Source: Deltaproteobacteria bacterium GWB2_55_19 (GTDB taxonomy: Bacteria; Desulfobacterota; GWC2-55-46). Taken from it: a stretch of 51,450 bases of DNA. Both the position numbers and the translations under genes were made by a program. The stretch's first letter is position 1; each line of letters opens with the position of its first letter. Below are positions 5,864-21,576 of this stretch, in pieces. The stretch lies in assembly GCA_001797465.1 (NCBI GenBank), contig MGPQ01000005.1, positions 159,032 through 210,481 on the forward strand. Direction: 5' to 3'. The notes under the pieces were generated by a model that made no database searches, was not told the DNA's origin, and saw nothing but the letters and a program-made list of their open reading frames with translations.

Positions 5864-6243
5864 TGCAACGAATACTCAAAATGCTCGGCGTCTTCAGCAC
5901 CGCCTCCATCGTGCTCGCGAGCTTCGGACTTGTACTGGCCACGTCGAGCTTCATAAGCGGGCTTCAGCTCGTCAAGTCCGCCTCTATGGTAGAACGGAAG
6001 ATACACCGCTTCAACGGGTTTACGGCGCTCACCCTGTACGTCATACTCGCCATCCTCGCCTTCTGGTACGAGGGGTTCGGGTTTCTCCGCCTCCTCGGCT
6101 GGTCCTCCGGGCTCTGCGTATTCCTCCTCAAGATATTAATAGTGAGGTCCAAGAAGCGACGGGCGTTCAAGTACCTGAGCTGGCTCGGGGGCACGCTCAT
6201 ACTCGTCTGGCTCTACATGGTCTACATCCACATACCTGTATAA
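5863..6243 (+). CDS. Uncharacterised four-helix integral membrane protein
   Basis: 126 residues with about four transmembrane helices (near 8-33, 52-68, 75-92 and 105-122). A basic loop KSKKRRAF-like segment lies between helices 3 and 4, and single His residues sit near helix 2 (KIHRFNGF) and at the C-terminus (YIHIPV). The start codon shares a base with the upstream stop (TAATG), so it is translationally coupled to the beta-helix gene. The His placement vaguely recalls small haem-binding membrane proteins, but no motif is decisive. Function unknown; a membrane partner of the anchored beta-helix protein is possible. Confidence 0.65.
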   Translation: MQRILKMLGVFSTASIVLASFGLVLATSSFISGLQLVKSASMVERKIHRFNGFTALTLYVILAILAFWYEGFGFLRLLGWSSGLCVFLLKILIVRSKKRRAFKYLSWLGGTLILVWLYMVYIHIPV

Positions 6244-6283
6244 AAGGTCCGGCCCTTGACGCCGGACGCATCACACCCGGAGG

Positions 6284-7735
6284 ATGAATACCCGCGTGGA
6301 AAATGAGGACCGTCGAACCGGGAGGGGCCGGGCAATCGCGCTTATCCTGCTTGTGGCGGCCTTCGGGGCGCTCCGCGTAGCTTCGGCATTAAACGACCTC
6401 TACATCGACGAGATATGGTCCCTCCACTTCGCCTCGCGCGCCTCATCCGTCATTGACGTCTTCTCGGTCCGCCACGACAACAACCATATCCTGAATACCG
6501 TCTACCTCTATTTCGCCGGGAGCGGCTCGATCTTCCCGTCCATCCCGCCGGTATTCATCCATCAGAGGCTCCTCTCGGTTGCGGCGGGGACGCTTTCGCT
6601 CGGAGTCCTCGCGTATATCGGCCTCAAGCGCGGCTTTATCGAGGCAATGACGCTCGTGCTGATCGCGGGCGCCTCTTACCCGCTCGTCCTCTACTCATCC
6701 GAGGCGCGTGGCTACGCTCCGTCCATCCTCTTCGCGCTCATTGCCTTTACGCTCGCCGGGAGATGGCTTAAGACGAGATCGGCTGTCATCCTCCCCTTCT
6801 ACTGGGCCTCTGTCTCACTCGGCCTCCTCTCCCACTCGAGTTTCTTCTATGTCCTTCTCGCGCTCTCAGGCTGGTCGGTCGCAGGGAGGCTTAAGTCCGG
6901 CCTGGATAACATAGCGATAAGGGACCTCATCCTTTTCAACGCGGTCCCGTTCGCCGTCCTTGCCGCCTTGTACATCTTTTTCATAAGCGGCATAGCCATA
7001 GGCGGCGGCACGCGCGGGGATATATTCGGCGCTACGCTCCACGCCTCCAAGATGGCCTTCGGAGTGCCGGGTACGGGGTGGGCATCCAACGCCGCCGGCG
7101 CGGCCATCGCGCTCTTTTTTTTCGTTTCCGGCGTGTTGATGGAATTACGGTCAGGCTCTGGGAGGTGGGTCTTTTTCGCGCTCTGCGTCGTCGTAGCCCC
7201 GGCCCTTGCTATCGCGGCCGCGAAGCCGGAGTTCTTCTACTTCAGGTACTTCATAGTCTCTTTCCCGTTCCTCTACATCCTCGCCGCATTCGTCCTCGCA
7301 AGGGCCTTCCGTTGGTCATCGGCCGGAAAGGCCCTCTACGCGGCGTGCATGGCCTTATTCCTCTTATCCAACTTATATTCGGACTGGAGGCTCGCGACAG
7401 TCGGCAGAGGCGCTTACTTTGACGCCATGATGTTCATGGCGGATAACGCGCCCGGGGGAGAGGCCGCGATCGGGAGCGACCACGACTTCAGAAATAAGGC
7501 CGTCCTCTCGTTCTACGCGAAGTTCCTGCCTGAGGGCAGGACGGTCACATACTTTGACAGAAACGAATGGCCCGAAAATGGACCGGGCTGGCTCATACTC
7601 CATAGCGTGGACCCCGGCTATAAGCCTTATGAGAGGACATTCGACGCGGGCGTTGAATATTCTCTGGCAAAGAGTTACGGGTTTGCGGGGGATTCAGGCT
7701 TCAGCTGGCACATATACAGGAAGGCAGGGCCTTAG
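6284..7735 (+). CDS. GT-C fold glycosyltransferase (family 39/ArnT-like)
   Basis: 483 residues with 10 or more predicted membrane helices. The first extracytoplasmic loop holds NDLYIDEIWSLHFA, the Asp-Glu motif of GT-C enzymes that use polyprenyl-phosphate sugars, followed by RHDNNHILNTVYLYF. The C-terminal 100 residues are soluble, as in this family. Expected role: transfer of a sugar from a lipid carrier to a protein or glycolipid outside the cytoplasm. Start choice is awkward: the GGAGG directly abuts the ATG at 6284 with no spacer. An in-frame GTG at 6296 lies 12 nt after the same site, so the true N-terminus may be four residues shorter. It closes the plus-strand cluster and converges with the TPR gene. 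Confidence 0.8.
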   Translation: MNTRVENEDRRTGRGRAIALILLVAAFGALRVASALNDLYIDEIWSLHFASRASSVIDVFSVRHDNNHILNTVYLYFAGSGSIFPSIPPVFIHQRLLSVAAGTLSLGVLAYIGLKRGFIEAMTLVLIAGASYPLVLYSSEARGYAPSILFALIAFTLAGRWLKTRSAVILPFYWASVSLGLLSHSSFFYVLLALSGWSVAGRLKSGLDNIAIRDLILFNAVPFAVLAALYIFFISGIAIGGGTRGDIFGATLHASKMAFGVPGTGWASNAAGAAIALFFFVSGVLMELRSGSGRWVFFALCVVVAPALAIAAAKPEFFYFRYFIVSFPFLYILAAFVLARAFRWSSAGKALYAACMALFLLSNLYSDWRLATVGRGAYFDAMMFMADNAPGGEAAIGSDHDFRNKAVLSFYAKFLPEGRTVTYFDRNEWPENGPGWLILHSVDPGYKPYERTFDAGVEYSLAKSYGFAGDSGFSWHIYRKAGP

Positions 7736-7780
7736 ATGGATGAGACAAGGACCAGCTAAGGGGTGTCTCTCTATGCTTAC

Positions 7781-7800
7781 CCTCCCCGGTCACGGGGAGG
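7781..7800. terminator. GC hairpin between convergent genes
   Basis: CCTCCCCG (7781-7788), loop GTCA, CGGGGAGG (7793-7800) in the 100-bp gap between the convergent glycosyltransferase and TPR genes. There is no T-run on either side, so it is at best a weak bidirectional terminator or a REP-like hairpin. Confidence 0.35.
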
Positions 7801-7835
7801 ATGCAAAATCACTGAAGACCGCATGGATGAAGCGC

Positions 7836-9611
7836 CTATCTTTGCGCGTCCAGCATCTTCTGCAGGTTCTGTATGGCGGCTGTGTTGTCCGGGTTCATTG
7901 CGATGGCCTCGTTGAACGCGCCTGCCGCCTTATCCGTTGAGCCGGCCCCGGCGTACGCCATGCCGAGCCAGTTGAAGAGGTCGTCGGATGCGCCTCTGGA
8001 AGAGGCGGATTCAAAACTCGCCGCCGCCTCCGCGAACATCCCTTTCTGATAATAGGCCTTCCCCATAGCGAAGAGCATATTGGCCCGGACCGACTCGTTC
8101 TTTGTGAGCCCGACCGCCTTCTGGAACATCGGCAACGCCTTATCGAACTCCCTTAAGTTGTAATAGACGACGCCAATGTTCATGTAAAGGCCGCCCGCGT
8201 CAGGCGCAAGGGCGAGCGACTGTTCATACTCCCTTATGGCCTCTCCGTAAAACCCGGCCTCCGCGTAGGCGACCCCGAGGCTCCCGTGGGCCGTCGCGCT
8301 CTTCGGGGCGTCCTCGACCGCCCTTTTCCAGTACGACAACTCGTCCTTCCAGGTCTTTATCGAAGCTACCGTATCCACTGAATAGAATACGAGGAGCGGT
8401 AGTATTATAACGACCGGGACGGCCTTCATGAGGCTCCCGGAAGGCCCCCTGGAGGCCGTCTCCCGCGCGCCCAAAAACGACTTGAGGATGAGCGTAAAGA
8501 GTATCGCGAACCACGCGCTCGGCATATACAGGTACCTCGACGCGAAGACCCATTCCCCCTGTATGTACTTTATGAGCAAGATCGCCGGTGAGAGAGGGAC
8601 GAGTATCCAGAAAACACATAATACGATACCCCTGTCACGGGTCCTGTGGAGAGAGTAAAGGACGAGCGCAACAAGCAGGAGCGCGAGGATGACCTCGTGG
8701 TTCAATAGCCCAGTAATCGCATCCGTCGGCCTGAACGCGTAGTAGAGCTTCAGATCGAACGGGAAGACGAGCTTTCCGACATATTTGCCTGCTATCGCGG
8801 CAACGGACAGGACGTACTGTAAAGGCGTCATGGCGTGCTCGACGTTCAACGGGCCTCCGATCCATGACCGCGCGATAAGGAACGCGCCCGTCGCCATCGC
8901 ATATGGCATATAGCGCGCGACGGACTTAAGCGAGAGCCTCGAGGCTGAATAATCGTAAACAATAATGAGGAGCGGGAGGAAGATCGCCGTCTCCTTTGAG
9001 ATGAGGGCGACGGCGTAAAAGAAGACCGAGAGGGCGTAGAGGGGCATCGCGCCGGAGCGCGAGCTCAAGGACCTCGCGTAGAGATAGAAGGACAGGAGGC
9101 AAAGGAGCGTGAAGAAAAGCTCCATCACCGCGGCGACCCACGTGACCGCCTCGACATTGACCGGGTTAAGCGCGAACATGAGGGAAGCGGCGAGCGGCAA
9201 CGCGCCTAAAGCGCCGGCTCCCTGCCCCTGGTCGGCAAGCACGGGGCGGGCTTCCCTATCGGAGGAGAGGACGACCGACGCCGCCAGATAGACCATGATC
9301 GCGTTCAGGATATGCAGGACGACATTTACGAGGTGATACCCGAACGGCTCCTTTTCCGCGAAGGCGTATATGGCCATGTTGACGATGTGGAGCATCGGCC
9401 TGTAATAATTGGACGCACCCTGGACAAAGTCGCCCTCGTAATACCCCCACGGCGGAGAGGTGAATATGACGGGTATGTAGCGGGCGCTCGTCAGCCACTT
9501 GTTCTCGGTTATCTGGGGAAAGTCGTCGCGAAAAAAACCTGACGAGAGGGCGCCGAAGTAAACGGCGAAGGTGACGGCTATTATGACGAGGAACGGGAGG
9601 TACTTTTTCAT
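7836..9611 (-). CDS. Polytopic membrane protein with C-terminal TPR repeats (TMTC/DUF1736-like)
   Basis: 591 residues. The N-terminal about 430 residues contain roughly ten membrane helices, starting with MKKYLPFLVIIAVTFAVYFGALSSGFFRDDFPQITEN; the Asp-Asp in the first loop is the GT-C-like acidic motif. The C-terminal 160 residues are tetratricopeptide repeats (for example AHGSLGVAYAEAGFYGEAIREYEQSLALAPD and GGLYMNIGVVYYNLREFDKALPMFQKAV). This layout matches proteins annotated as TPR/DUF1736 or TMTC-like, suspected O-glycosyltransferases whose TPRs bind the acceptor protein. The upstream region has no strong ribosome site. Its pairing with a convergent GT-C gene suggests a cell-surface glycosylation locus (inference). 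Confidence 0.75.
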   Translation of the reverse strand: MKKYLPFLVIIAVTFAVYFGALSSGFFRDDFPQITENKWLTSARYIPVIFTSPPWGYYEGDFVQGASNYYRPMLHIVNMAIYAFAEKEPFGYHLVNVVLHILNAIMVYLAASVVLSSDREARPVLADQGQGAGALGALPLAASLMFALNPVNVEAVTWVAAVMELFFTLLCLLSFYLYARSLSSRSGAMPLYALSVFFYAVALISKETAIFLPLLIIVYDYSASRLSLKSVARYMPYAMATGAFLIARSWIGGPLNVEHAMTPLQYVLSVAAIAGKYVGKLVFPFDLKLYYAFRPTDAITGLLNHEVILALLLVALVLYSLHRTRDRGIVLCVFWILVPLSPAILLIKYIQGEWVFASRYLYMPSAWFAILFTLILKSFLGARETASRGPSGSLMKAVPVVIILPLLVFYSVDTVASIKTWKDELSYWKRAVEDAPKSATAHGSLGVAYAEAGFYGEAIREYEQSLALAPDAGGLYMNIGVVYYNLREFDKALPMFQKAVGLTKNESVRANMLFAMGKAYYQKGMFAEAAASFESASSRGASDDLFNWLGMAYAGAGSTDKAAGAFNEAIAMNPDNTAAIQNLQKMLDAQR

Positions 9612-9676
9612 GGGACCGGCTCTGCCCCTGCCTCTCAGAGCGAGGCTTTTCTCGCGTTATTAGCCCGGCGTAACGA

Positions 9677-9708
9677 GCGGACGTCCGTCCGCCGGCCAGG
9701 GAGGCCGG
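9677..9708. repeat. Two adjacent short hairpins in an intergenic spacer
   Basis: GCGGAC-GTCC-GTCCGC (9677-9692) is followed directly by CCGGCC-AGGGA-GGCCGG (9692-9708), both perfect 6-bp stems, in the 249-bp spacer between the TPR gene and the hemerythrin-like gene. The following GGAAGCGTTA resembles part of the longer dispersed repeat at 27609-27735 and 32881-33006, so it may be a degenerate relative. Confidence 0.4.
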
Positions 9709-9793
9709 AAGCGTTATGGGGCAAAAGATTATATCAAAATTACATCCGTGAGGGAATACCATAAATGCCGGGGGACCCTCGGTATGAGGAAGA

Positions 9794-9826
9794 CAAAAAA
9801 AGAGGCTGGCGCAAGCGCCAGCCTCT
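9794..9826 (-). terminator. Terminator of the hemerythrin-like gene
   Basis: On minus: AGAGGCTGGCGC (9826-9815), a tight 2-nt turn, GCGCCAGCCTCT (9812-9801), then seven T's (9800-9794). Perfect 12-bp stem, 35 bp beyond the stop codon. Confidence 0.9.
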
Positions 9827-9860
9827 TTCATTACATCCCAAAATGGGATACGGTCAACGG

Positions 9861-10661
9861 TCAGTGGCAACACCCCTGATGCGTAAGCTCCCTTAAGGCG
9901 ATGATCTCTTCGTTGAACGCGCCCCTCTCCTCATTAACCCGCTTCACCATCTCGGCTATCGGGACGGGCGTAAACTCCGCCTCTATCTTCCTCATCCCCT
10001 CGGCGAGGTCTCTCCGCATCGCCTTGTCAAGGCACTTGTCGACCATCTCGAAGAACTCCTGGTCCTCTTTCCTTATATGCCCCTTGAGAGAGACGATCAT
10101 GGAGGTTATGATGCCGTCAAGGATGGTCTCCTCCTCGAGGGCGTTGCGGAAGTTCGAGAGGAGCGACATGATTTCCCTGTGCTCCTCCTTTATGATCTCG
10201 GTAAGGGACTCCCCGAACGCCACGACACCCCTCATCGCCGGAAAGAGTACCTCCTCCTCCTTGAGCCCCGAGTGGAGGTGAATGGCGTTGGCGAGCTCAT
10301 AGGTTGAGACCCAGAGGGCTTTGATGTCGCGCCTCTTGACCTGCTCCTCAACCTCCTCGAACTTCCGAATAATCTGCCTGTGCTCGAGGATGAGTGTGCC
10401 GATGGGGTCGTTCTCGTCGAGCCACTGTTCCTCTGCCCCGTTGGACTCGGGCGCGATCCTGACGAGCTCCCTCACCTTGAATGGCCTGGAGAACCCGAGC
10501 TTACAGAAGCCCTTCGGGCTCCTGAAGAGCTCGGGGTCATCGTATGCGGCCTTTAGCTCCTTGAAAAGGTCCTCGTAAACGGCTATGGTACCCTCGCGGC
10601 AGTTGGCGCAGCATGTACCCTGCGTGCAACGGTACTTTATCTCTATTTTAAGATTTGACAT
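9861..10661 (-). CDS. Hemerythrin-like (HHE) di-iron protein with Cys-rich ends
   Basis: 266 residues, soluble. The central part is a hemerythrin/HHE helical bundle with candidate iron ligands H94 (LEHRQI), H128/H130 with E134-E136 (HLHSGLKEEE), H161 (EEHREIM) and H195 with the acidic residues after it (GHIRKEDQEFFE). Upstream of the bundle is a 70-residue region with four clustered Cys (C12, C17, C18, C21) and C53. The protein ends in HQGCCH, which could bind a further metal. HHE proteins bind oxygen or NO, or serve Fe-S repair. Its place in the nar region and its gene pairing with a DUF2299-type protein (28-bp gap) make a role in nitric oxide or oxygen stress during nitrate respiration reasonable, but this is inference. 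Confidence 0.8.
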   Translation of the reverse strand: MSNLKIEIKYRCTQGTCCANCREGTIAVYEDLFKELKAAYDDPELFRSPKGFCKLGFSRPFKVRELVRIAPESNGAEEQWLDENDPIGTLILEHRQIIRKFEEVEEQVKRRDIKALWVSTYELANAIHLHSGLKEEEVLFPAMRGVVAFGESLTEIIKEEHREIMSLLSNFRNALEEETILDGIITSMIVSLKGHIRKEDQEFFEMVDKCLDKAMRRDLAEGMRKIEAEFTPVPIAEMVKRVNEERGAFNEEIIALRELTHQGCCH

Positions 10662-10689: not shown

Positions 10690-11202
10690 TCAGGCGTGGC
10701 CTACGGTCTCGCCCTTATTAGCGGAGGGCATGACCGGCATGCCGAACTCGTCGTTGAACTTCGTTATTATGTAAAGTAGCGTCCTGTGATTCAGGAGGAG
10801 CCCCTCGTAGAGCTTGGTCTTTGTGAGGCTGTCGACGTAGAACTCATATGAGAACTGGACCTGCTTGGCCACGCCATGATCGTCCAGGTTCATATCGTAG
10901 GAGTTCTGCAGGAAGATGAGGTCCTTCCTTATCTCGCCGTAGAACGCGTCGCGGTCGTTCTCGTTCATCTTCTTAATCTTCTCCATGTGCTCGTTTGCGA
11001 TGGCGACACCGTTAAGGAGCACGATAAGCCCGGGGTAGTCCTTGGGCTGGATGACCCTCTGCCTCTTCATCGAACCGAGGGGATAATCGACCTCAAGGTG
11101 GAAATTAACGTTGTCGTCCTTGATGTCGGTCACCTGGTGGTGGTTCTCCTCAAGCCACTTCTTTATGATTTCCTTCGCCTGCTCCGTGGTAGTATTCTCC
11201 AT
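10690..11202 (-). CDS. DUF2299-like conserved hypothetical protein
   Basis: 170 residues, cytoplasmic. The N-terminal helix EIIKKWLEEN, the NFHLEVDYPLG strand, the QPKDYPGLIVLLNGV core and a C-terminal helical section (FSYEFYVDSLTKTKLYEGLL) match what I remember of DUF2299 (PF10061), a family without assigned function; the assignment is from memory. The ATG at 11202 has GGAGAGG just upstream. It is followed by the hemerythrin-like gene on the same strand, so the two are probably co-transcribed. Confidence 0.65.
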   Translation of the reverse strand: MENTTTEQAKEIIKKWLEENHHQVTDIKDDNVNFHLEVDYPLGSMKRQRVIQPKDYPGLIVLLNGVAIANEHMEKIKKMNENDRDAFYGEIRKDLIFLQNSYDMNLDDHGVAKQVQFSYEFYVDSLTKTKLYEGLLLNHRTLLYIITKFNDEFGMPVMPSANKGETVGHA

Positions 11203-11983: not shown

Positions 11984-13684
11984 CTACTGGCCCTGCCAGG
12001 ACCCCTTGGCCTTGTCCCACCATGTGCCGCCGGAGTTGCCGTAGTCATATCTCTCCGCGCCCTTACGGGTGTAGTACCACCAGTTGAGGAAGTTGGCATA
12101 CGCGTAGAAGACTGCGGCGCCGATGAAGAACGGCACAGCGCTGCCGTACTTGGTAATGGAAGCGCCAATGAGGCTTGTGAATATAAACGGGCCGAATGCG
12201 GCCCAAGCGCCGGTCCATCCGAGCATCTGCGCGCCCTTGGCCGGCGAATACGCGAACACTATTGGGTACTGGCGGAAGGTCGCCGCGTTGGCTATGCCGG
12301 TCATGAGGAATATCCATAGCATTATCAGGACAAACCCGGTGAACGACTCAAGCCCGGTCGGCTTAAGGAACCCGCCGAATACAAGGGCCAGACATCCGAT
12401 GATCTGCCCTATGAAGCACCACAACATGCCCTTTGACCCGCCCCACTTGTCGAATATAGGGCCGGTTAACGCGCGGGATAAACCGCCGATTAGCGGGCCG
12501 AGGTACGCGTACTGCAACGCGTCAGGCGCGCCGTCAAAACCGCCGTAGATGGTCTTGATCATTATCGGGAACGCGGCCGCATAACCGGAGAACGAACCGA
12601 ATGATGCGATATAGGTTACTGTGCAGTTCCAGGTATGCGTCAGCGCCCTGTCCTTGGTGCTGAGTATTTCAAACTGTTTCTTGAAGCCGCCGCTCTTGAC
12701 ACCGAGCGCGGCCGGGTCGATGCTTCTCAGCAACAACACGCAGAGTATGAAGGCCACGATGAGGAAAGGTACGTACCAGAACGCGGCGTTCTGTACCCAC
12801 ATGCCCTTCTTTATCACATTCTTGACCGTTACATCAGTGATTGCGCCGGCGTCGTTTCTCTTGACCTCTACCTTTACGCCTTTAGCAGTCCTTACTTCCG
12901 TAATGGCGCCCTTATCGTTTCTCGTTACATCTTCCTTTATAGCCTTGATGGTATCGGTCTCCTGAAGGACCACGTCCTTCAGCACGCCGCCTTCTTTTAC
13001 GACCATTACAGCGGGGATCCACTCAGGCTTGTTGATCACTACGTCAGTAACAACGCCGTTGTCCTTGATAACCGTTATCGCGCCCTTGATCGCATCGGCC
13101 TTCGTGAATAACTGCGGGCCGCCGGCTATCGCGCCGAGGACTGCGCCGCCGATGATGACGGGGGTTACGAACTGGACTACGCTAACGCCGAAGTTGCCTA
13201 TGCCGGCCTGGAGGCCCATGGCGAGGCCCTGGAGCCTCTTCGGGAAAAAGATGGAGGTGGAAGGCATATAGGAGGAGAAGTCGCCGCCGCCCATCCCGGT
13301 AAGGAACCCGATTATCATGAACGTGCCCCAGGTCGTGTTAAGGTCCTGCACCGCGTAGCCAAGCCAGACCATCGGTATGAGCTTGATGATCGTCGCTATG
13401 CTTACGACCGGCCTTGTCCCGAGTATTGGGATGAAGAATGAGTGAATGAGCCTCAATATGCCGGAAGCGAACCCGGGTATCGCCGCGAGCCAGAAGAGCT
13501 CCATGGTTGTGAACTTGAAGCCTATGGCGGGAAGCCTCACGACCACGGCGCTCATGACGAACCACGTGGCGAATGAGAATATCAGCGAGAACGTGGTTAC
13601 GCCGCATGTGCGCCACGCTATCCCGCTGGCGGTTTCGCGCCAGAACTGTTCATTCTCCGGCTGCCATTTTGTCAGTTTTGCCAT
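11984..13684 (-). CDS. narK: NarK-type nitrate/nitrite MFS transporter with a periplasmic repeat insert
   Basis: 566 residues. Start is the ATG at 13684 (MAKLTKWQPENEQFW) with AGGAG upstream; an earlier Met at 13789 adds 35 unrelated residues. It aligns by eye with E. coli NarK along the first five helices, including the TM2 arginine (ILRLIHSF, R78), the nitrate-signature glycines (AGIGNFGVSVVQ, 160-171) and the second arginine (GLSRALTG). Between TM5 and TM6 (about residues 194-294, nt 12803-13105) it carries a hydrophilic insert absent from E. coli NarK. The insert is built of four units of the form V-x-V-x-(2)-[DN]-x-G-x-[IV]-x-[DE]-V. By NarK topology this loop is periplasmic. Role: nitrate uptake and nitrite exchange for NarG. 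It follows narI on the same strand but has its own upstream region. Confidence 0.9.
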   Translation of the reverse strand: MAKLTKWQPENEQFWRETASGIAWRTCGVTTFSLIFSFATWFVMSAVVVRLPAIGFKFTTMELFWLAAIPGFASGILRLIHSFFIPILGTRPVVSIATIIKLIPMVWLGYAVQDLNTTWGTFMIIGFLTGMGGGDFSSYMPSTSIFFPKRLQGLAMGLQAGIGNFGVSVVQFVTPVIIGGAVLGAIAGGPQLFTKADAIKGAITVIKDNGVVTDVVINKPEWIPAVMVVKEGGVLKDVVLQETDTIKAIKEDVTRNDKGAITEVRTAKGVKVEVKRNDAGAITDVTVKNVIKKGMWVQNAAFWYVPFLIVAFILCVLLLRSIDPAALGVKSGGFKKQFEILSTKDRALTHTWNCTVTYIASFGSFSGYAAAFPIMIKTIYGGFDGAPDALQYAYLGPLIGGLSRALTGPIFDKWGGSKGMLWCFIGQIIGCLALVFGGFLKPTGLESFTGFVLIMLWIFLMTGIANAATFRQYPIVFAYSPAKGAQMLGWTGAWAAFGPFIFTSLIGASITKYGSAVPFFIGAAVFYAYANFLNWWYYTRKGAERYDYGNSGGTWWDKAKGSWQGQ

Positions 13685-13775
13685 TTTCAGATTACTCCTT
13701 TCACACTTATTGAAGTACGAGATAGTGCAGGGTGTAGCCGTGCGTCTGATGGAAGGGCCGGAAAAACCCCTCTGT

Positions 13776-13789
13776 CTTATATCGATCAA
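13776..13789 (-). promoter_or_regulatory. FNR/CRP-type box upstream of narK
   Basis: On minus TTGAT-CGAT-ATAAG: one perfect half-site and a 3-of-5 second half against TTGAT-N4-ATCAA. Its centre is about 98 bp before the narK ATG, which leaves room for activation at -41.5 with a 5' leader of about 55 nt. Suggestive for anaerobic control; weak match. Confidence 0.35.
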
Positions 13790-13898: not shown

Positions 13899-14597
13899 TT
13901 ACTTGTACTGTACGATATTCTCGGTCTGCGGTGTCCTCTTGTACCACCTGACGACCTGGTAAGGCCTTACGAGGTACTTGTAAGGGTTCAATACCACGAA
14001 GTGGGCGAGCCTTGAGAACGGGATGAAGCCGATGAATATCAAAGCGTTGAAGATATGGACCTTGGTTATGAGGGGAAGCGTGGCCACATAATCGACGTTC
14101 GGGTTGAGCTTAAGGATCGACCAGATCCACGGTACAGCCGCTCCGGCGTACCAGTTGGAGCCCCACCTGTACATGGTGGCGTTAAGGACGCCCGTCACAA
14201 CCTGTATGAGGAGGACGATGAGTATGAGCACGTCCCAGGAGCTGGTAAGGGCCTTGACCCTGGAGTTCGTGAGCCTCCTGTAGATGAGGGCGAGGAGACC
14301 GAAGAGCGCCAGGAACCCGCACGAGAGCGCGGTGAGCTCAAGTATGTAGAGCCTTACCGGAGCTCCGTTCCACGCAAGGATCGCGCTCGGGAAGAATATC
14401 CCGAATATGTGTCCGAGAAGGATCGTTATGATCCCGTAGTGCCAGGGAAACGACCCGAAGAACAGGGTCTTGTTCTCCAGGAACTGCGAGGACTGCGACG
14501 ACCATGTGTATGCGTTGCTTTTGAATCTCCATATCGCGCCGACTATTGCTGTAAAGATCAGCACGTACGGCATTGCGCCGAACAGGACCTTATCCAT
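13899..14597 (-). CDS. narI: Respiratory nitrate reductase gamma subunit (cytochrome b)
   Basis: 232 residues with five membrane helices. The four haem-ligand histidines of NarI are present in the right spacing: H53 (PWHYG), H63 (LLGHIFG), H181 (KVHIFNA) and H199 (RLAHFVV), compared with 56/66/187/205 in E. coli. It oxidises quinol at the periplasmic side and passes electrons through two b haems to NarH. The ATG overlaps the narJ stop (TAATG). Last gene of the narGHJI block. Confidence 0.97.
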   Translation of the reverse strand: MDKVLFGAMPYVLIFTAIVGAIWRFKSNAYTWSSQSSQFLENKTLFFGSFPWHYGIITILLGHIFGIFFPSAILAWNGAPVRLYILELTALSCGFLALFGLLALIYRRLTNSRVKALTSSWDVLILIVLLIQVVTGVLNATMYRWGSNWYAGAAVPWIWSILKLNPNVDYVATLPLITKVHIFNALIFIGFIPFSRLAHFVVLNPYKYLVRPYQVVRWYKRTPQTENIVQYK

Positions 14598-15145
14598 TAT
14601 TTAGCCTCCTTAACATCCTTTTCTATGACTCTGTATATGGCACTTATCACGTGGAAATATATGCTCTTTCTGTTCTTTTCGAAGTTCTTGTAGAGCTTCT
14701 CCATCCCCATGATCACGAACGATTCCCTGAAGTCCTTCTTAAGGGCCTCGTCCTTGACTAAACCCAGGAAATGAAGCATGACAGGCAGATGGTCCGGAAG
14801 CTCGCCCTTGGCAAACGCGTCGAAAGGGAAACCGTTCTCATTGTACATCGACTTTATCGCGGAGAGCTTGCTCGCCCTCTTGAAGCCGTCGTAGATATGG
14901 TATCCCATGTCGAGCGTGAAGTCCGAGGTAAGCTCGAAGGTGTAGGAGTATACCCCTTGAAGATCATCAAGGGGTATCTCCTCCAAATCCTTCTGGAATT
15001 TCTTGAGCTCTTCCACAGACTCTGCCGGGTGGCCAGGCAGGGAGGAGAGCGTCTTTACGCACTCCTCGGCCTTAAGCTTTATATCCTCTTTCGGATATTC
15101 AAGCAACCCCGCAAGCTGTGTATATAAGCTCTTTTCCATGACCAT
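14597..15145 (-). CDS. narJ: Nitrate reductase assembly chaperone
   Basis: 182 residues, all-helical, TorD/NarJ family. It shows the typical start (LYTQLAGLLEYP), the central ELTSDFTLDMGYHIYDGF segment with DLPVML-like continuation (LPDHLPVMLHFLGL) and its usual position between narH and narI. NarJ binds apo-NarG and holds it for molybdenum cofactor insertion; it is not part of the finished enzyme. Start at 15145, three bases after the narH stop; a second ATG at 15139 is possible. Confidence 0.95.
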   Translation of the reverse strand: MVMEKSLYTQLAGLLEYPKEDIKLKAEECVKTLSSLPGHPAESVEELKKFQKDLEEIPLDDLQGVYSYTFELTSDFTLDMGYHIYDGFKRASKLSAIKSMYNENGFPFDAFAKGELPDHLPVMLHFLGLVKDEALKKDFRESFVIMGMEKLYKNFEKNRKSIYFHVISAIYRVIEKDVKEAK

Positions 15146-15148
15146 CGC

Positions 15149-16669
15149 CTACCAGGTCCTCCCAAGGAACTCCTTCTTCTTAGGACCGAAGCCGACGGAG
15201 CCCCTCTTCTCGTACATGGTCCTCGGGTCCACCGTCGTCATGTGCTCGCGGTGGGTCTCGGGGATCACGAACCTCTCCTGGAAGGTACCGAGCGAGGTAA
15301 GTCTGTAGATGTCCTCTGCGTCCTGCGGGGTGAGCCCGACGGACGAAAGGACGCTCTTCGCCTTGGAGTCGCCGATGTCGCCGACCCTCTTCTGGCGTAT
15401 GTAGATACGGACGGCCATCTGCTTCTTCAGCGATTCGAGTACTACCTGCTCGTTGCCAGCCGAGAGCATGTTGGCAAGGAATCTTACAGGTATCCTCATC
15501 TTGTCTATCTCGTTGAAGAACTCGGTCGACTCGGGGTCGAACGTGCCGCCGTTTTCAGCCTTCGCGTTGTGGAGTATCGGCGAAAGAGGCGGTATGTAGA
15601 AGTTCATCGGAACGGTCCTGAACTCGGGGTGGTTCGGCATCGCTATGCGCCACTTCTTGAAGAGGTTGTACGCAGGCGACTGCTGAGCGGCCCTTAGCCA
15701 GTTCTCGTCGATGCCGGCCTTCCTGGCTTCTTCGATTACCCTCGGGTCGTTCGGGTCGAGGACTATCTCCCTCATCGCCTCGACGAGCCTGTCGTCTGGG
15801 GTCTTGGCGACGTCTTCGATCCTGTCGGCGTCATAGAGGAGCGCGCCAACGAACCTGATCCTGCCGGTGCATGCGTGCGCGCAGGCGTTCGGCTGGCCGG
15901 TCTCGGTCCTGGGGTAGCAGAATATGCACTTCTCACTCTTGCCGTTCGCCCAGTTGTAGTAGGGCTTTTTGTACGGGCAGGCGCTCACGCAGAATCTCCA
16001 GGCCCTGCAGGTATCCTGGTCGATGAGCACGATGCCGTCCTCGCCCCTCTTGTATATCGCGCCTGACGGGCAGGACGCGACGCACGCGGGGTTCAGGCAG
16101 TGGTTGCATATCCGCGGGAGGTAGAAGAAGAAGAGCTTGTGGAACTTGGTGAGCATCTCCTTCTGCGATTCCGACAGACCCTTAAGGTTCGGGTCGTTCG
16201 CGGCGTACAAGGGGCTTCCGGCCATGTCGTCGTCCCAGTTCGGGCCGAGGACTATCTTCTCCATGAACTCGCCGGTGATGAGCGACTTAGGCCTCGCAGT
16301 CGGCTGGTCGTCTCCGGCCGGCGCGTTGAAGAGGTTCTGGTAGTCGTAGGTGAACGGCTCGTAGTAGTCGTCCACGGTCGGCAGGTTCGGCTGGAAGAAG
16401 ATGTTCGCCAGCGTCCTGATCTTGCCGGGGCCTTTGAGGAGCTTCAACCTCAAGGACCCGCCGGAGACCTCCCAGCCGCCCCTGTACCTCTCCTGGTCTT
16501 CCCAGGTGAGGGGGTAGCCGGCGCCGGGCTTGGTCTCAACGTTGTTCCACCACATGTACTCGGCACCCCTGCGGGATGTCCACACGTTCTTGCAGGACAC
16601 GCTGCAGGTGTGGCAGCCGATGCACTTGTCCATGTGAAAACTCATCGATAACTGAGCTCTTATATCCAT
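15149..16669 (-). CDS. narH: Respiratory nitrate reductase beta subunit (four Fe-S clusters)
   Basis: 506 residues from the ATG at 16669, which overlaps the narG stop (TAATG) and lies 9 nt after GGAGGT; a GTG two codons earlier is closer to the site and less likely. Cluster motifs visible: C16-x2-C-x2-C-x3-C (CIGCHTCSVSC), CNHCLNPACVASCPSG, CRAWRFCVSACPYKK and KCIFCYPR with the following ACAHAC. The third has the Trp-for-Cys pattern that makes the NarH [3Fe-4S] centre. It carries electrons from NarI to NarG. Length matches the family. Confidence 0.97.
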   Translation of the reverse strand: MDIRAQLSMSFHMDKCIGCHTCSVSCKNVWTSRRGAEYMWWNNVETKPGAGYPLTWEDQERYRGGWEVSGGSLRLKLLKGPGKIRTLANIFFQPNLPTVDDYYEPFTYDYQNLFNAPAGDDQPTARPKSLITGEFMEKIVLGPNWDDDMAGSPLYAANDPNLKGLSESQKEMLTKFHKLFFFYLPRICNHCLNPACVASCPSGAIYKRGEDGIVLIDQDTCRAWRFCVSACPYKKPYYNWANGKSEKCIFCYPRTETGQPNACAHACTGRIRFVGALLYDADRIEDVAKTPDDRLVEAMREIVLDPNDPRVIEEARKAGIDENWLRAAQQSPAYNLFKKWRIAMPNHPEFRTVPMNFYIPPLSPILHNAKAENGGTFDPESTEFFNEIDKMRIPVRFLANMLSAGNEQVVLESLKKQMAVRIYIRQKRVGDIGDSKAKSVLSSVGLTPQDAEDIYRLTSLGTFQERFVIPETHREHMTTVDPRTMYEKRGSVGFGPKKKEFLGRTW

Positions 16670-19600
16670 TACCACTTCACCTCCTGATTTCTCATTTTTC
16701 TCACCAACACTGTGGTGTCCCTGATGATCGGGATCGGGCCCCAGCCGTTAAAGGCGTAGGAGAACTGCCCGTAGCCGCCGGTCATGAGGGTCGGCTTCAG
16801 ACGCTGTCTGGTGAGCGAGTTGTGGAATCCGCCCCTGATCTTGTTCCTCTGCTCCGCCTTCGGGATGTTGATGGTCCTCTCCTGAGAGTGGTACGCGAAG
16901 CAGGTGCCGGTCGGGATCCTGGCGCTTACTACGGCGCGGCAGACGAATATACCGTTGTCGTTGTAAGCCTCCACCCAGTCGTTGTCCTTTATGCCGACGC
17001 TCTCGGCGTCCTTGTCGTTAACCCAGCAGGAGTTGCCTCCGCGGGACAGGGTCAACATCCTAAGGTTGTCGTAGTGTGTCGAGTGTATCGCCCACTTGCT
17101 GTGCGGGGTGATGTAGTTGAGCATAAGAGCGTCGGTCTTATCCGACTTCTGGAGCTCGTTCATCCTCGCCGGGTTCAGCTTGTACTTATGGGCGCACAAC
17201 CCCTCGCCGTACTCGAGGAATATCGGGTGGTCGAGGTAGAAGTGCTGTTTGCCCGTAAGCGTCCTCCAGGGCACCCTGCGCTCGGTCTGGATGGTCCAGG
17301 TGCCGTACGCGCGGCCCTTCCTGTTGTCGCCGGTCCAGAGGGCGCTGGTGAGCCACCTTCTCGGCTGGGCTACGATGTCGTCGTAGGTGACCGTGAAGTT
17401 CCTGTCCGGGCCCGCGATCTCCTCGGCAAGGCCGTGCGCGCCAGCCCTGAACTCGACCTCGGGGTATATCTCTCTGACGGCCTTCTTCGCCGCGTCGTAA
17501 GTCTCGGCGTGGAGACCGGTGTGGTGCTCTTCCTCAACCCACTGCCTGTAGCCCACTTCACCGTTGGTCGTGCCGGAGAAGGCCATGACAAAGTTGCAGG
17601 CCTCCTTGGCGGTCCTGATGGAGATGAACTTCTGGCCGTTGAAGTCGACGGAGTCTATGTGCTCCTGCTTCAGGTAGTTCTCGTAGAGGTCCTTGCCGTC
17701 GAGCATGATCCCGTGGAACCCGTACTTGCCCTTCATGAGCGGGCCGACCGAGATGTACTGCTTGTCGATGTTGGCGTAATCCCTCTCGACCACGCTGATG
17801 GACGGCATGGTCTTGCCGGGTATCGCCTCGCACTGGCCCTTCTTCCAGTCCTGTACGCCGTTAAGCGCGGGCTGGGCGATCTCGCCGGGGGTGTCATGTC
17901 CAAGCGGAGCGGTCATGACCTCCTTTACCGGCCTCGGGAAGTGCTTCTTGGCTATCTCGGCGAACTTCTCCGAGAGGAACCTGTATGCGTCGTAATCGCT
18001 CTTCGACTCCCAGTTCGGCTGTACGGCCGCGCCCATCGGGTGGATGAAGGAGTGGAGCTCTGTCGTGTTGATGTCTTCCTTCTCATACCAGTGGGCCGCC
18101 GGGAGCACGATGTCGCAGTACGTCGGGGTCGTGTTCATACGCATGTTAAGGTCGACGAGAAGGTCGAGCTTTCCAAGCGGGGACTCCCTGTACTTGAGCT
18201 CTTTCAGGTACGGCTTGGCAACTTCCTCGGTTACGAGGTTGTTGTGGGTGCCGAGGAGGAACTTGAAGAAGTACTCCTGGCCTCTGGCGCTGGAGCCGAG
18301 CGCGTTAGCCCTCCAGATCAACCAGACTCTCGGCCAGTTCTCCGGGGCGTCCGGGTCTGCGATGGCGAAGTCGAGAGTGCCGCTCTTAAGCTGCTTCACG
18401 ACATAGTCCACGACGTCGGCGTCTGTCTTGGCGCCGGACCTCTGGGCCTCATCGTAGAGCGCTATCGAGCTCTTGTTGAACTGCGGGTAACCTGGCATCC
18501 AGCCGAGCCTTACCGACCTTACGGCGTAGTCGGCGGTGTGCTGGTACTCAAGCGCGGACTTGTCCGGGACGACGTGGTAGTCGGTTATCGCAGAGTCGTA
18601 CTTGAACTGCTGAGTGTGGAGATACCAGTTGATCGGGTTGGACATGAGTCTCGGGGGCCTTACCCAGTCGAGCGAGTGGGCGATCTGACCCCAGGAGTCG
18701 AACGGGGCGAGCTTTTCCTGTCCGACGTAGTGCTGGAGACCGCCGCCGTTCCTTCCGACGCAACCGCAGAGCATAAGGGCGTTCATGCCCGATCTGTACA
18801 TGAGGTCGGAGTGGTACCAGTGGTTGAACGAGGCGCCGCAGATGATCATCGAGCGGCCCTTCGTCACCTCGGCGTTGGAGGCGAACTCCCTGCCGACCTG
18901 GATGATGGTGTCCCTGCCGATGCCGGTGTACTTCTCCTGCCATGCAGGCGAGAAGCCCCTGTCGTCATCGTAGTTCTTGCAGTAGTCGCCGGAAAGGCCC
19001 TTTCTGCCGACGCCGCAATGCGCCATGTAGAGGTCGAATACCGTGGTTACGGGTGTCCTGCCTTCCTTGGTCTCCACGTACTTAACGGGCACCTGCCTCT
19101 TGTATCTCTCGGGCTTGTCGAGCTCGTGGAATACGACCTCGATAGCGTCGTCCTTTATGTCAAGGAGGGTAAGGGCCGGGGAGATGTCCTCGCCGGTCTT
19201 GCCGTCCTTAAGGAGCGTGTTCCACTTGCCGTGGCTCTCGTGCTTCTGGGGGTACCTGTAACCCATACCGCCGTTCACTACGCGGGCCTTGCCGGTCTTC
19301 TCGTCCCACATGCAGAACTTCCACTCCGGGTTGTCCTCTTCGGCGTAGGCGGCCAGATCGCAGGCCTTGAGATAGCGGCCGAGCTCGTAGCCGTCCTTGC
19401 CCTTCGTTAGCTTAACGAGGTTCGGCAGGTCGGTGTAGTTCTTGCAATATACGTCAAAGTACGGCGTCTTCTTGTCGACGAAGTACTCCTTCAGGATGAC
19501 ATGGTTCACGCCGAGCCAGAAGGCCGTGTCGGAACCTGTCTTCAAAGGCACCCAGAGGTCGGCGTACTTGGTGACCTGTGAGTAGTCCGGGGCGCAAACG

Positions 19601-20388
19601 ACGAGCTTGGCGCCGCCCATCCTGAGCTCGGAGACGAAGTGCGCGTCCGCGGTCCTGGTCATGTTCGGGTTCGCGCCGTTCATGACTACGTAGCCGGCGT
19701 TGTACCAGTCCGCGCTTTCGCACGAGTCGGTCTGCTCGCCCCATACCTCGGGTTCCGCGTTCGGCAGGTCGGTGTAATAGTCGTAGAAGCTAAGATGCAC
19801 GCCGCCGATGAGCTGGTTGTAGCGGGCGCCGGAGGTGTAGCTGATCTGGCTCATGGCCGGGATCGGTGAGAAGGCTATGTTCCTGTCCGGACCGTACTTC
19901 TTTATGGTGTAGATCTGGGCCGAGACGATGATCTCGGCGGCGGTGTCCCAATCGAACCTGCGGAATCCGCCCTTGCCCCTCGACCACTTTATCTTCTTGG
20001 AGAGCTCTGCGTTCTCGACGATCGACCTCCAGGCGTCAACGGGGTCGGCGTGCTTCGACCTCGCTTCCTTCCAGGCGTCGATGACGATGCCCCTGACGTA
20101 GGGGTACTTGATCCTTACCGGGCTGTAAACGTACCAGGAGGCGGATATGCCCCTCTGGCAGCCGCGCGGCTCGTAAGGCGGCAGAGACTGGTCGAGCTTC
20201 GGGTAGTCAACGGCCTGGAGCTCCCAGGTGATGATGCCGTCCTTTACGTATACCATCCAGGAGCAGCCGCCGGTGCAGTTGTTGCCGTGCGTAGACCTTA
20301 CGGTCTTGTCGTACTGCCAGCGGTTCCTGTAGAACTCTTCCCATCCCCTTTTACCGGGGTTGATTTCATCCTGTATCCAGTTAGACAT
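16669..20388 (-). CDS. narG: Respiratory nitrate reductase alpha subunit (Mo-bisMGD catalytic)
   Basis: 1239 residues, the usual length. The N-terminal FS0 cluster motif H34-x3-C38-x3-C42-x34-C77 (THGNNCTGGC ... RGCQRG) is intact, and the Mo-ligand aspartate is D221 in GEQTDSCESADWYN. Long stretches match E. coli NarG by eye (YGPDRNIAFSPIPAMS, GRSMIICGASFNHWYH, PWRTLTGKQHFYLDH). No twin-arginine leader is visible, so the active site should face the cytoplasm, unlike the archaeal-type exported enzymes. Start ATG 20388 has AAGGAGG in front and follows the cytochrome c gene without a gap. Reaction: nitrate + 2e + 2H+ to nitrite and water. Confidence 0.98.
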   Translation of the reverse strand: MSNWIQDEINPGKRGWEEFYRNRWQYDKTVRSTHGNNCTGGCSWMVYVKDGIITWELQAVDYPKLDQSLPPYEPRGCQRGISASWYVYSPVRIKYPYVRGIVIDAWKEARSKHADPVDAWRSIVENAELSKKIKWSRGKGGFRRFDWDTAAEIIVSAQIYTIKKYGPDRNIAFSPIPAMSQISYTSGARYNQLIGGVHLSFYDYYTDLPNAEPEVWGEQTDSCESADWYNAGYVVMNGANPNMTRTADAHFVSELRMGGAKLVVCAPDYSQVTKYADLWVPLKTGSDTAFWLGVNHVILKEYFVDKKTPYFDVYCKNYTDLPNLVKLTKGKDGYELGRYLKACDLAAYAEEDNPEWKFCMWDEKTGKARVVNGGMGYRYPQKHESHGKWNTLLKDGKTGEDISPALTLLDIKDDAIEVVFHELDKPERYKRQVPVKYVETKEGRTPVTTVFDLYMAHCGVGRKGLSGDYCKNYDDDRGFSPAWQEKYTGIGRDTIIQVGREFASNAEVTKGRSMIICGASFNHWYHSDLMYRSGMNALMLCGCVGRNGGGLQHYVGQEKLAPFDSWGQIAHSLDWVRPPRLMSNPINWYLHTQQFKYDSAITDYHVVPDKSALEYQHTADYAVRSVRLGWMPGYPQFNKSSIALYDEAQRSGAKTDADVVDYVVKQLKSGTLDFAIADPDAPENWPRVWLIWRANALGSSARGQEYFFKFLLGTHNNLVTEEVAKPYLKELKYRESPLGKLDLLVDLNMRMNTTPTYCDIVLPAAHWYEKEDINTTELHSFIHPMGAAVQPNWESKSDYDAYRFLSEKFAEIAKKHFPRPVKEVMTAPLGHDTPGEIAQPALNGVQDWKKGQCEAIPGKTMPSISVVERDYANIDKQYISVGPLMKGKYGFHGIMLDGKDLYENYLKQEHIDSVDFNGQKFISIRTAKEACNFVMAFSGTTNGEVGYRQWVEEEHHTGLHAETYDAAKKAVREIYPEVEFRAGAHGLAEEIAGPDRNFTVTYDDIVAQPRRWLTSALWTGDNRKGRAYGTWTIQTERRVPWRTLTGKQHFYLDHPIFLEYGEGLCAHKYKLNPARMNELQKSDKTDALMLNYITPHSKWAIHSTHYDNLRMLTLSRGGNSCWVNDKDAESVGIKDNDWVEAYNDNGIFVCRAVVSARIPTGTCFAYHSQERTINIPKAEQRNKIRGGFHNSLTRQRLKPTLMTGGYGQFSYAFNGWGPIPIIRDTTVLVRKMRNQEVKW

Positions 20389-21024
20389 TTACCTTCCTCC
20401 TTTTCCGCCGTAATTTCTCCATAAGGCATCGTGGGCGGTGCCCTTGTTCCTGTTCCTGTACCTTCCGCTCCAGATTATGTTGAATAAGATCAGTATGCCT
20501 ATGAAGCCGCCAATGCCCACGATCGTGAAGGTCCCGGTCGAAGAGGGGGCCACGTTGCCCTGAGACTGCTTGGCGAAGAACGCCCTCAGGTGCCCTACCT
20601 CGTCGTCGGAGACCGGCCTGTTGGAGAATACAGTGCCCATTACGGGGGTCGACGGGTTGTTGATCCACGCCGAATTGATGAGCGGGTTCTTCGACTCGTC
20701 GGCATACACCTTCGTCAGGTTCGGCCCGAGCACTCCGCCGCCCAGGGCGCCGACACTCGCGCTGTGGCACGAGATGCACGGAGGCGCTCCGCTTGCGAAC
20801 CTCTTGCCGCCCGTGAAGTAGAGCTCGCCAAGTCTCGCGTCACCAGGCTCTGCAGGGACCGGAGCCGCCTCGACAGCAGGCGCCGCTTCAGCCGTTGCAA
20901 CAGCCGGGGCCGGAGTGGCCTGGTCAGCGGCCTCGACCGTCACGACAGCTCCCGTGACGAGGAACGCGGCCAAACCGAGTTGCAGCCCTTTCCAGAAAAC
21001 TCTTTTACAACTCTTTAAATCCAT
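20389..21024 (-). CDS. Monoheme c-type cytochrome with C-terminal membrane anchor, first gene of nar operon
   Basis: 211 residues in this order: signal peptide (LQLGLAAFLVTGAVVTVEA, to about 32), an Ala/Pro-rich linker (33-60), a class I cytochrome c domain with one haem site C83-I-S-C86-H87 and likely distal ligand M129 (TPVMGTVF), then one membrane helix (about 166-185) and a basic tail inside the cell. The haem faces the periplasm. It abuts narG with no spacer, so it is a true operon member. It could feed electrons to, or draw them from, the NarI side, comparable in position though not in architecture to the NarC of Thermus (from memory). AAGGAGGTGT lies upstream of the ATG. Confidence 0.92.
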   Translation of the reverse strand: MDLKSCKRVFWKGLQLGLAAFLVTGAVVTVEAADQATPAPAVATAEAAPAVEAAPVPAEPGDARLGELYFTGGKRFASGAPPCISCHSASVGALGGGVLGPNLTKVYADESKNPLINSAWINNPSTPVMGTVFSNRPVSDDEVGHLRAFFAKQSQGNVAPSSTGTFTIVGIGGFIGILILFNIIWSGRYRNRNKGTAHDALWRNYGGKGGR

Positions 21025-21150: not shown

Positions 21151-21576
21151 TTATAAGGGGAACGCCGCGGCGCAAGAGGAGCCTTCGAGGTTCCCCCTCG
21201 CGAGATTGAGAGTGAGACGGATGAGGTCGAAGCCGGTCTTAAGCGGCTTGCCTGAGCGCCCGTAGTCCACGAGCGGCTCAGTATCCTCGGAGACCTGCTT
21301 GGTCCCGAGCTCTATTAGATGGTCCTGGAAATCGAATACGAACGTGTCGGCGCTATTGTTGGGCCCTGCAACGGCGGGGATGGATGAGATGAACTTGCCT
21401 AAAATGGACGCGGCGCCTCCGGCCTCGAAGGCCCCGGCCGATTCCGCGCGCGCAATATGCTCTACAACGGCGCCGCCGCAAGCCCTCTTCCTGACGGCCG
21501 GACACAGACGCACCGCAATCACGTAGATAAGACACTTGCAGAGGCGGACGATCGCTATCCTGATAGATTGACTCAC
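21151..21576 (-). CDS. Possible small hypothetical protein upstream of the nar operon
   Basis: A 141-codon open frame on the same strand as narG, ending 127 bp before the cytochrome c gene. GTG start at 21576 with GGAGG (21589-21593) 12 nt away, longer than usual. The N-terminal third looks non-native (many Cys and Arg), while the rest (ILGKFISSIPAV, DTFVFDFQDHLIELGTK) reads more like a real protein. I recognise no family. It may be a genuine small regulator, a decayed gene or chance in GC-rich DNA. Confidence 0.3.
   Translation of the reverse strand: MSQSIRIAIVRLCKCLIYVIAVRLCPAVRKRACGGAVVEHIARAESAGAFEAGGAASILGKFISSIPAVAGPNNSADTFVFDFQDHLIELGTKQVSEDTEPLVDYGRSGKPLKTGFDLIRLTLNLARGNLEGSSCAAAFPL

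Follow-up and report, generated by a model that had tools for sequence, protein, structure and literature searches.

A one-haem, NarC-related cytochrome c encoded directly before narG as a probable fourth subunit of nitrate reductase

To our knowledge, the NarGHI nitrate reductase of E. coli works without a cytochrome c subunit. The nar cluster of Thermus thermophilus, narCGHJIKT, begins with a gene for such a protein, NarC, which has two haems. A 2008 abstract reportedly describes the distal haem of Thermus NarC as necessary for growth on nitrite and the proximal haem as not; by distal we understand the N-terminal haem, as we infer from the C-terminal position of the anchor. The accessible text of a review (PMC7694296) gives the distal haem the greater relevance for the route to nitrite and NO, and reports that narC mutants contain soluble, immature NarG and that NarC binds NarI in two-hybrid tests. 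The same text describes NarC as absent from the nar operons of mesophiles. According to the part of PMC10609526 available to us, NarJ binds to the first 15 residues of E. coli NarG, whose N-terminus also contacts NarI and, when deleted, leaves anchoring impaired. Thermus NarG lacks this segment and the hairpin that follows it, which the same source offers as a possible reason why assembly there needs both NarC and NarI.

The locus described here lies in a 51,450-nucleotide stretch of DNA from Deltaproteobacteria bacterium GWB2_55_19, which we call the window. The ORF list, alignments and BLASTP identify the gene at 20389-21024 on the minus strand, the strand of all features of the nar locus given below, as that of a one-haem NarC-type cytochrome c of 211 residues. 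A signal peptide of about 33 residues (20926-21024) is probably cleaved near VEAA-DQ, judged by eye from AxA-like sites that recur in homologues. It is followed by a variable Ala/Pro-rich stretch (about residues 34-58; 20851-20925) and by a haem c domain (residues 59-155; 20560-20850), in sequence comparison the counterpart of the C-terminal, membrane-near haem domain of Thermus NarC. This domain carries the haem attachment motif CISCH (residues 83-87; 20764-20778) and M129 (20638-20640), the probable distal axial ligand. A transmembrane helix (about residues 165-184; 20473-20532) is indicated by hydropathy and AlphaFold2, and the cytoplasmic end, residues 185-211 (WSGRYRNRNKGTAHDALWRNYGGKGGR; 20392-20472), is the most conserved part of the alignment. 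The hydropathy maximum spans residues 166-184, and the sequence SGRYRNRNKG next to it predicts a C-terminus on the inside. In the AlphaFold2 model (mean pLDDT 79, pTM 0.59) the haem domain is folded and helices lie at 163-192 and 197-204; residues 24-62 are without secondary structure, with pLDDT below 50 at 30-37.

The protein is thus predicted to be a periplasmic haem domain with a membrane anchor, as in Thermus-type NarC. The anatomy that the earlier note had read from the sequence, namely a signal peptide, one haem with CISCH and M129, and a C-terminal helix, agrees with the open reading frame, alignments, hydropathy and model, and the ATG of narG does follow the stop codon of the cytochrome gene immediately, as the note had said. 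Its flexible Ala/Pro tether was a misreading, as the stretch lies between signal peptide and haem domain rather than between haem and anchor, and is often missing (42% gaps in an alignment of 21 homologues, and almost absent from several). Cleavage of the signal peptide at the AxA-like site would leave it as a free N-terminal end and no tether. Only about nine residues separate the haem domain from the helix, and the domain must therefore sit near the membrane.

The closest described relative is Thermus NarC. BLASTP with composition adjustment off aligned the window protein to NarC of T. thermophilus JL-18 (L125:7210-7998, directly before narG) with 58 identities in 169 columns (34%, E 1e-23). 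The alignment covers the C-terminal haem domain and the anchor, and the distal haem domain is absent from the window protein. As the match is to the C-terminal half only, we take the protein for a NarC relative with the membrane-near haem alone. Its single CXXCH, in place of two, sets it apart from the NarC described for Thermus, and we call it a one-haem variant related to that protein. In a plasmid collection searched at E 1e-3, the sole cytochrome relatives were five Thermus records, each just upstream of narG. The window NarG agrees: its 14 best matches among the plasmid records were all from Thermus, at about 52% identity, with the next at 46%. Other searches with the cytochrome were less specific. 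Pfam gave no cytochrome family, NCBIfam only weak SoxX and generic haem matches, and PDB sequence searches generic cytochromes c. A Foldseek search with the model gave no match below E 0.001, cytochromes c being the best, and among viral contigs 86 pattern matches included no cytochrome relative. The source genome holds a single copy at E 0.001.

The CXXCH ligands and M129 are strictly kept. C83, C86, H87 and M129 are invariant in the 21 homologues and also in a set of 39 relatives in which two- and three-haem forms are represented by their C-terminal domain. In these 39, 14 positions are invariant, among them these four residues, E142, W185 and R188, part of the GG..GP.L block among them having belonged to the search pattern. 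Taken over its length, the cytoplasmic tail is better conserved than the parts before it: among the 21 cytochromes the mean pairwise identity is 0.81 for residues 185-207, whereas the haem domain reaches 0.60 and the helix 0.59. The last tail residues are partly explained by the needs of narG. In 45 distinct tails G209 is encoded by GGA in 44 and K208 by AAA in 35, which places AAAGGAGG within a few bases of narG, and this codon choice suggests that the end of the cytochrome gene (20392-20403) is likely to double as the narG ribosome-binding site, with AAAGGAGGA (20395-20403) as the codons of K208, G209 and G210 and the likely site itself. At T196, H198, N204 and Y205 the synonymous codons vary but the amino acid does not in any of the 45 tails; for N204 and Y205 this invariance is built in, because the loci were partly fetched by the pattern WRNYGGKG. 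Both residues are also invariant in the 21-row alignment, whose loci came from a scan without this pattern or GGxLGP[ND]LTK. The tail of the two-haem branch differs from that of the window type, so docking by this tail would not be common to the whole NarC family.

The earlier note had assigned the cytochrome to the nitrate reductase and asked whether its homologues might lie mainly outside nar operons; homology and gene linkage uphold the assignment. Among 59 related genomes the cytochrome is present in 36 and narG in 37, with both in 35 and neither in 21, and the presence of the cytochrome exceeds chance. The two genes agree in 35 of the 38 genomes that carry either, and the remaining three are contig breaks: the G001 contig covers only 140 residues of narG before it ends, and in G049 and G012 it starts inside narG, so that the upstream gene is not visible. 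narG lies directly downstream of the cytochrome in 20 of 20 loci in each of two partly overlapping locus sets. A scan of named genomes, whose loci overlap in genomes with those of the separate scans and whose patterns (WRNYGGKG and GGxLGP[ND]LTK) partly build in the conservation of those residues, matched 99 relatives, of which the best 80, in 79 loci, were kept. The cytochrome is directly upstream of narG in 78 of these 79, and the other, L094, ends 71 bases past the cytochrome. The gap between the genes is -4 to +24 bases in 76 of the 77 of these loci that could be measured, and 103 bases in L073. One genome, G044, has two separate cytochrome-narGHJI operons (L032, L033).

The loci from the best 80 matches come from MAGs titled Deltaproteobacteria (Myxococcota at NCBI), a Desulfuromonadales MAG, Nitrospirae, Planctomycetota, Acidobacteria, Chloroflexi, Thiotrichaceae, Fraserbacteria, Krumholzibacteriota and one MAG titled Aquifex, and NarC-type cytochromes are spread over about ten bacterial phyla. 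Within the phylum of the window, 296 genomes at least 90% complete were sampled, and narG was found at E 1e-200 in 25. A NarC match lies directly upstream in 20 of these (11 of the window type and nine more distant) and is missing in four; in the 25th, L151, the contig ends about 190 bases upstream of narG, too soon to show NarC. The groundwater and sediment MAGs with NarC are presumably from mesophiles, and speak against the claimed absence of NarC from mesophile nar operons.

All NarC-bearing NarG proteins measured have a short front end. In the loci from the best 80 matches, 32-39 residues precede the FS0 histidine in 77 of 77, the start being set by rule as the first start codon at or after the narC stop, with up to four bases of overlap allowed; L083, with a broken frame, and L094, where the locus ends, gave no value. 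In the sampled-phylum set the figure is 32-36 in 20 of 20 when the start nearest narC is taken, although L163 and L174 have a further in-frame start upstream, inside narC, and 11 of the 20 belong to the window clade, mostly from genomes that the 77 include as well. NarG proteins without NarC are longer. Eleven of them in ten plasmid loci (without a CXXCH open reading frame of over 100 residues within 2 kb upstream) have 44-58 residues, keeping the longer frame where inner starts would shorten it (to 34 in one L141 copy), and in six annotated loci the annotated starts are at 49-58. The four NarC-less proteins of the sampled-phylum set have 55-58, and L151 likewise. The window narG (16669-20388) encodes 33 residues before the histidine, and PF14710, the NarG N-terminal segment that E. 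coli has but the family does not require, matches its product only at positions 26-38 of 38 (E 0.0096, under the cut-off). In a quick NarG tree built without the N-terminal segment, the 77 NarC-bearing rows form one clade (SH-aLRT 100) against 15 rows without NarC, which include L151, left out of the NarC-less counts. The association of NarC with a short NarG thus maps to one change on this tree and counts as a single event. The absence of the segment appears to extend beyond Thermus across the sampled NarC branch.

The remaining nar genes are those of a cytoplasmic-type enzyme. narH (15149-16675) overlaps narG, with no gene in the nxrX position between them, unlike the Nitrobacter-type nitrite oxidoreductase, and is followed by narJ (14597-15145; 182 residues) and narI (13899-14597). 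NarG, NarH and NarI exceed the NCBIfam cut-offs (TIGR01580, 1385 bits; TIGR01660, 681; TIGR00351, 137), while NarJ falls below that of NCBIfam (53 against 59 bits) and above that of Pfam. Using what we take to be the haem b ligand numbers of E. coli NarI, the four histidines of the window NarI are H53, H63, H181 and H199, and all four are kept in 28 of 28 NarC-bearing rows, the window included. K86, presumably the quinol-site lysine of E. coli NarI, was considered as a marker of NarC and rejected: it is R in 26 of the 28 NarC-bearing rows and K in only four of nine NarC-less ones, and the local alignment is unsure. NarJ, measured from the first start codon, has 171-201 residues in 26 of 27 NarC-bearing loci (the other, at 675, has a wrong start) and 216-249 in eight of nine NarC-less loci, with one at 176; as a marker its shortness is suggestive only.

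Downstream of narI, a narK-like transporter of the MFS type (11984-13789; 601 residues) is a recurrent neighbour in relatives; about 85 of its residues (around 235-320) break the alignment with several homologues, not all. After the nar genes come a hemerythrin-domain protein and a DUF2299 protein (9861-10661 and 10690-11202), a pair that recurs behind narK in several relatives (L022, L023, L030, L040, L138), and a second narK and a universal-stress gene are divergent from the operon. Upstream, on the same strand and 126 bases from the cytochrome, is an open reading frame of 141 codons (21151-21576) with no assigned function. Its frame matches 54 fetched loci from overlapping sets, compared with 3-16 for other frames of the region, at 27-95% identity except in two copies of the window itself; seven of the 54 have a stop within the matched stretch, each near its very end. 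Neither Pfam, for the frame, nor Rfam, around it, gave a match. It looks like a real gene of the NarC family loci, judging by this conservation of frame, and the earlier description of the cytochrome as first gene of the nar operon holds for its junction with narG and is unsure for its place at the head of the transcript. An FNR-like box with one mismatch, which both the window and the near-identical L041 have 47 bases before the cytochrome, was rejected as it has no fixed place in most other homologues. Elsewhere, locus L134 (G000:C20:24000-43900) encodes at 5339-10416 a weak CuA-type subunit II, an unusual COX1-family protein of 505 residues, a protein that by eye resembles SCO and a cytochrome b-4Fe-4S-FlpD fusion, possibly a complex resembling NO reductase. 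A second odd COX1-family protein is at L135:7356-8789.

The number of haems varies within the family. Among the 79 loci from the best 80 matches, 48 are of the window type, 45 with one CXXCH and three masked, broken or cut. Of the other 31, 21 have two motifs, seven have three and three have one; two of these last are cut at contig ends and one, L107 from the Aquifex MAG, is apparently complete. The seven three-motif frames, all in Thiotrichaceae (L089, L092, L093, L094, L097, L115, L117), are NarC-type and run to more than 400 residues before narG, the L094 locus stopping short of where narG would begin; other Thiotrichaceae have two. For the nine more distant NarCs of the sampled phylum, the NarG tree pairs one-haem L161 with two-haem L156 as sisters and likewise L162, with one haem, with two-haem L159. 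Parsimony on this tree used 73 rows, without L056 and L085, whose haem region is masked or cut, and without L098 and L103, which contig ends cut short; it needs four changes from a two-haem ancestor and five from a one-haem ancestor at equal costs; with loss twice as dear as gain the one-haem ancestor wins, 5 against 7. We slightly prefer a two-haem ancestor that would have lost the distal domain about four times.

We think it probable, from sequence, models and analogy with Thermus, that the window cytochrome is a fourth, membrane-anchored subunit of NarGHI: a one-haem NarC that helps NarGH to mature and anchor and places a haem c beside NarI. NarC would be exported and hold one probable His/Met haem c near the periplasmic face of NarI, and its helix and conserved tail of about 25 residues would reach the cytoplasmic side, where NarGH may dock. 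Its constant job would be to mature NarGH, as the Thermus mutants suggest, and to attach it to NarI, replacing the N-terminal segment that NarG appears to lack in the whole branch. The conserved tail on the NarGH side together with the missing NarG segment makes a fourth subunit for maturation and anchoring the best explanation. NarI retains all four of its haem b histidines, so that electron transfer to or from the NarC haem is conceivable, and the contact of this haem with NarI may be an electron inlet or outlet.

It is less probable that NarC is purely a part for assembly and anchoring, with a haem domain that only folds the protein and carries no electrons. The conservation of the tail above all other parts, the repeated change in haem number and the assembly defect of narC mutants in the available Thermus text would all fit, but the ligands of the CXXCH and M129 are invariant in 39 of 39 relatives and the motif is kept in every intact copy among the loci from the best 80 matches and the tree rows, and we consider this reading unlikely. 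A larger part for the haem is possible but doubtful: NarC as an exporter, with NarI taking electrons from quinol and the NarC haem handing them to periplasmic cytochromes for the reduction of nitrite, NO or oxygen in place of complex III. The available text of the review (PMC7694296) proposes this for Thermus, which without NarC no longer grows on nitrite and NO, so the nitrite/NO route raised in the earlier note is not new. The source genome has an aa3-type oxidase (652 bits, just below the cut-off of 671) and a cbb3 oxidase, and its sole PF13631 match (51 bits) is a cytochrome b/4Fe-4S/FlpD fusion, no ordinary complex III being seen; something else must then reduce the cytochrome c pool, and NarC could be part of it. 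Against export stand the missing distal haem domain and the model searches of the source genome for NirS, NirK and NrfA, which found nothing, and these weaken the nitrite/NO branch of the added electron route that the note had suggested.

A wider comparison of 19 NarC-bearing genomes, hand-picked as good assemblies from the 36 with the cytochrome (G003, with 6% contamination, and G034 qualified on completeness and are outside the 19), bears on both sides. The cytochrome d1 family, which also covers NirS relatives, exceeds 200 bits in ten, in favour of export, and reaches E 0.001 in 13; NirK is above the cut-off in none, with weaker matches in eight (best 178 bits, G035), and NrfA is found in none. 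However, the cytochrome is kept in the nine draft assemblies without a cd1 match above 200 bits, and with or without complex III cytochrome b (above 100 bits in ten, weaker in three, none in six). That it is retained whatever the status of the nitrite reductases covered (cytochrome d1 family, NirK, NrfA) and of complex III cytochrome b favours a task within nitrate reductase. The electrons might instead run inwards, from a periplasmic donor through NarC to NarI, or leave through the cytochrome in a Nitrobacter-like oxidation of nitrite. The available texts offer precedents in a c-type cytochrome gene upstream of nxrA in Nitrobacter (nwi_0773; PMC4786786) and in the comparison of the Thermus and Nitrobacter clusters in the Thermus review (PMC7694296). 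Sequence gives no direction and the tree held no Nitrobacter sequences, while the cd1-family genes of ten of the 19 genomes, though none is found in the source genome, fit nitrate respiration there, and we judge this very unlikely. That an unrelated cytochrome adjoins narG by accident would agree with the lack of a Pfam cytochrome family and the weak SoxX-like NCBIfam match, but is refuted by the linkage in 78 of 79 loci from the best 80 matches and by the homology to Thermus NarC, and its probability is negligible.

Our preferred reading thus remains a fourth Nar subunit with a role in maturation and anchoring. Going beyond it, and only tentatively, we suggest that NarGH may be fastened to the membrane in two ways. 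In most bacteria the N-terminal segment of NarG would do this, checked by NarJ. One large branch would have lost the segment, its anchoring being gated by the helix and cytoplasmic tail of NarC, with the membrane-near haem as the fixed core and the distal haem as an electron outlet that is optional and would have disappeared some four times, one of these losses falling in the ancestor of the window clade.

Models of Nar enzymes with NarC should not treat them as a NarGHI that uses quinol only, and the series of one-, two- and three-haem forms found in nature is a direct way to separate assembly from electron export. In the available parts of the literature NarC is known from Thermus and, by analogy, Nitrobacter, and our survey places it in one NarG branch that includes groundwater Deltaproteobacteria, Nitrospirota MAGs and Thiotrichaceae. 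The two-haem NarC and the Nitrobacter upstream cytochrome are already known. In the literature surveyed, most of it outside subscription journals, a one-haem NarC is not described and no experiment on such a protein was found, and every paper that uses 'narCGHJI' concerns Thermus, judging from its title or abstract. As far as can be told within this literature, the new points are the one-haem form with its spread and its conserved cytoplasmic tail, and the coupling of NarC with a short NarG throughout the branch.

The haloarchaeal narC shares only its name with the gene described here, being a cytochrome b gene in Haloferax mediterranei in the accessible text of PMC2483277. Nitrobacter winogradskyi nwi_0773, upstream of nxrA, has a like gene position and, in the available text of PMC4786786, a proposed link to a cytoplasmic NarG-type enzyme; its nitrite oxidoreductase cluster includes nxrX, and the comparison with the window is by gene position, not by sequence. 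E. coli NarGHI has NarG and NarI homologous to those of the window, as the PDB search found, with the four NarI histidines kept. Its NarG has the N-terminal segment that the window NarG lacks, and it has no cytochrome c subunit, as the review text (PMC7694296) states for model bacteria. Thermus thermophilus NarC is closest, sharing the place before narG, the signal peptide, the C-terminal anchor and a homologous C-terminal haem domain, and there too the partner NarG has a short N-terminus. The window-type NarC differs from it in having one haem instead of two, in a strongly conserved cytoplasmic tail unlike that of Thermus NarC, and in its presumably mesophilic groundwater lineages.
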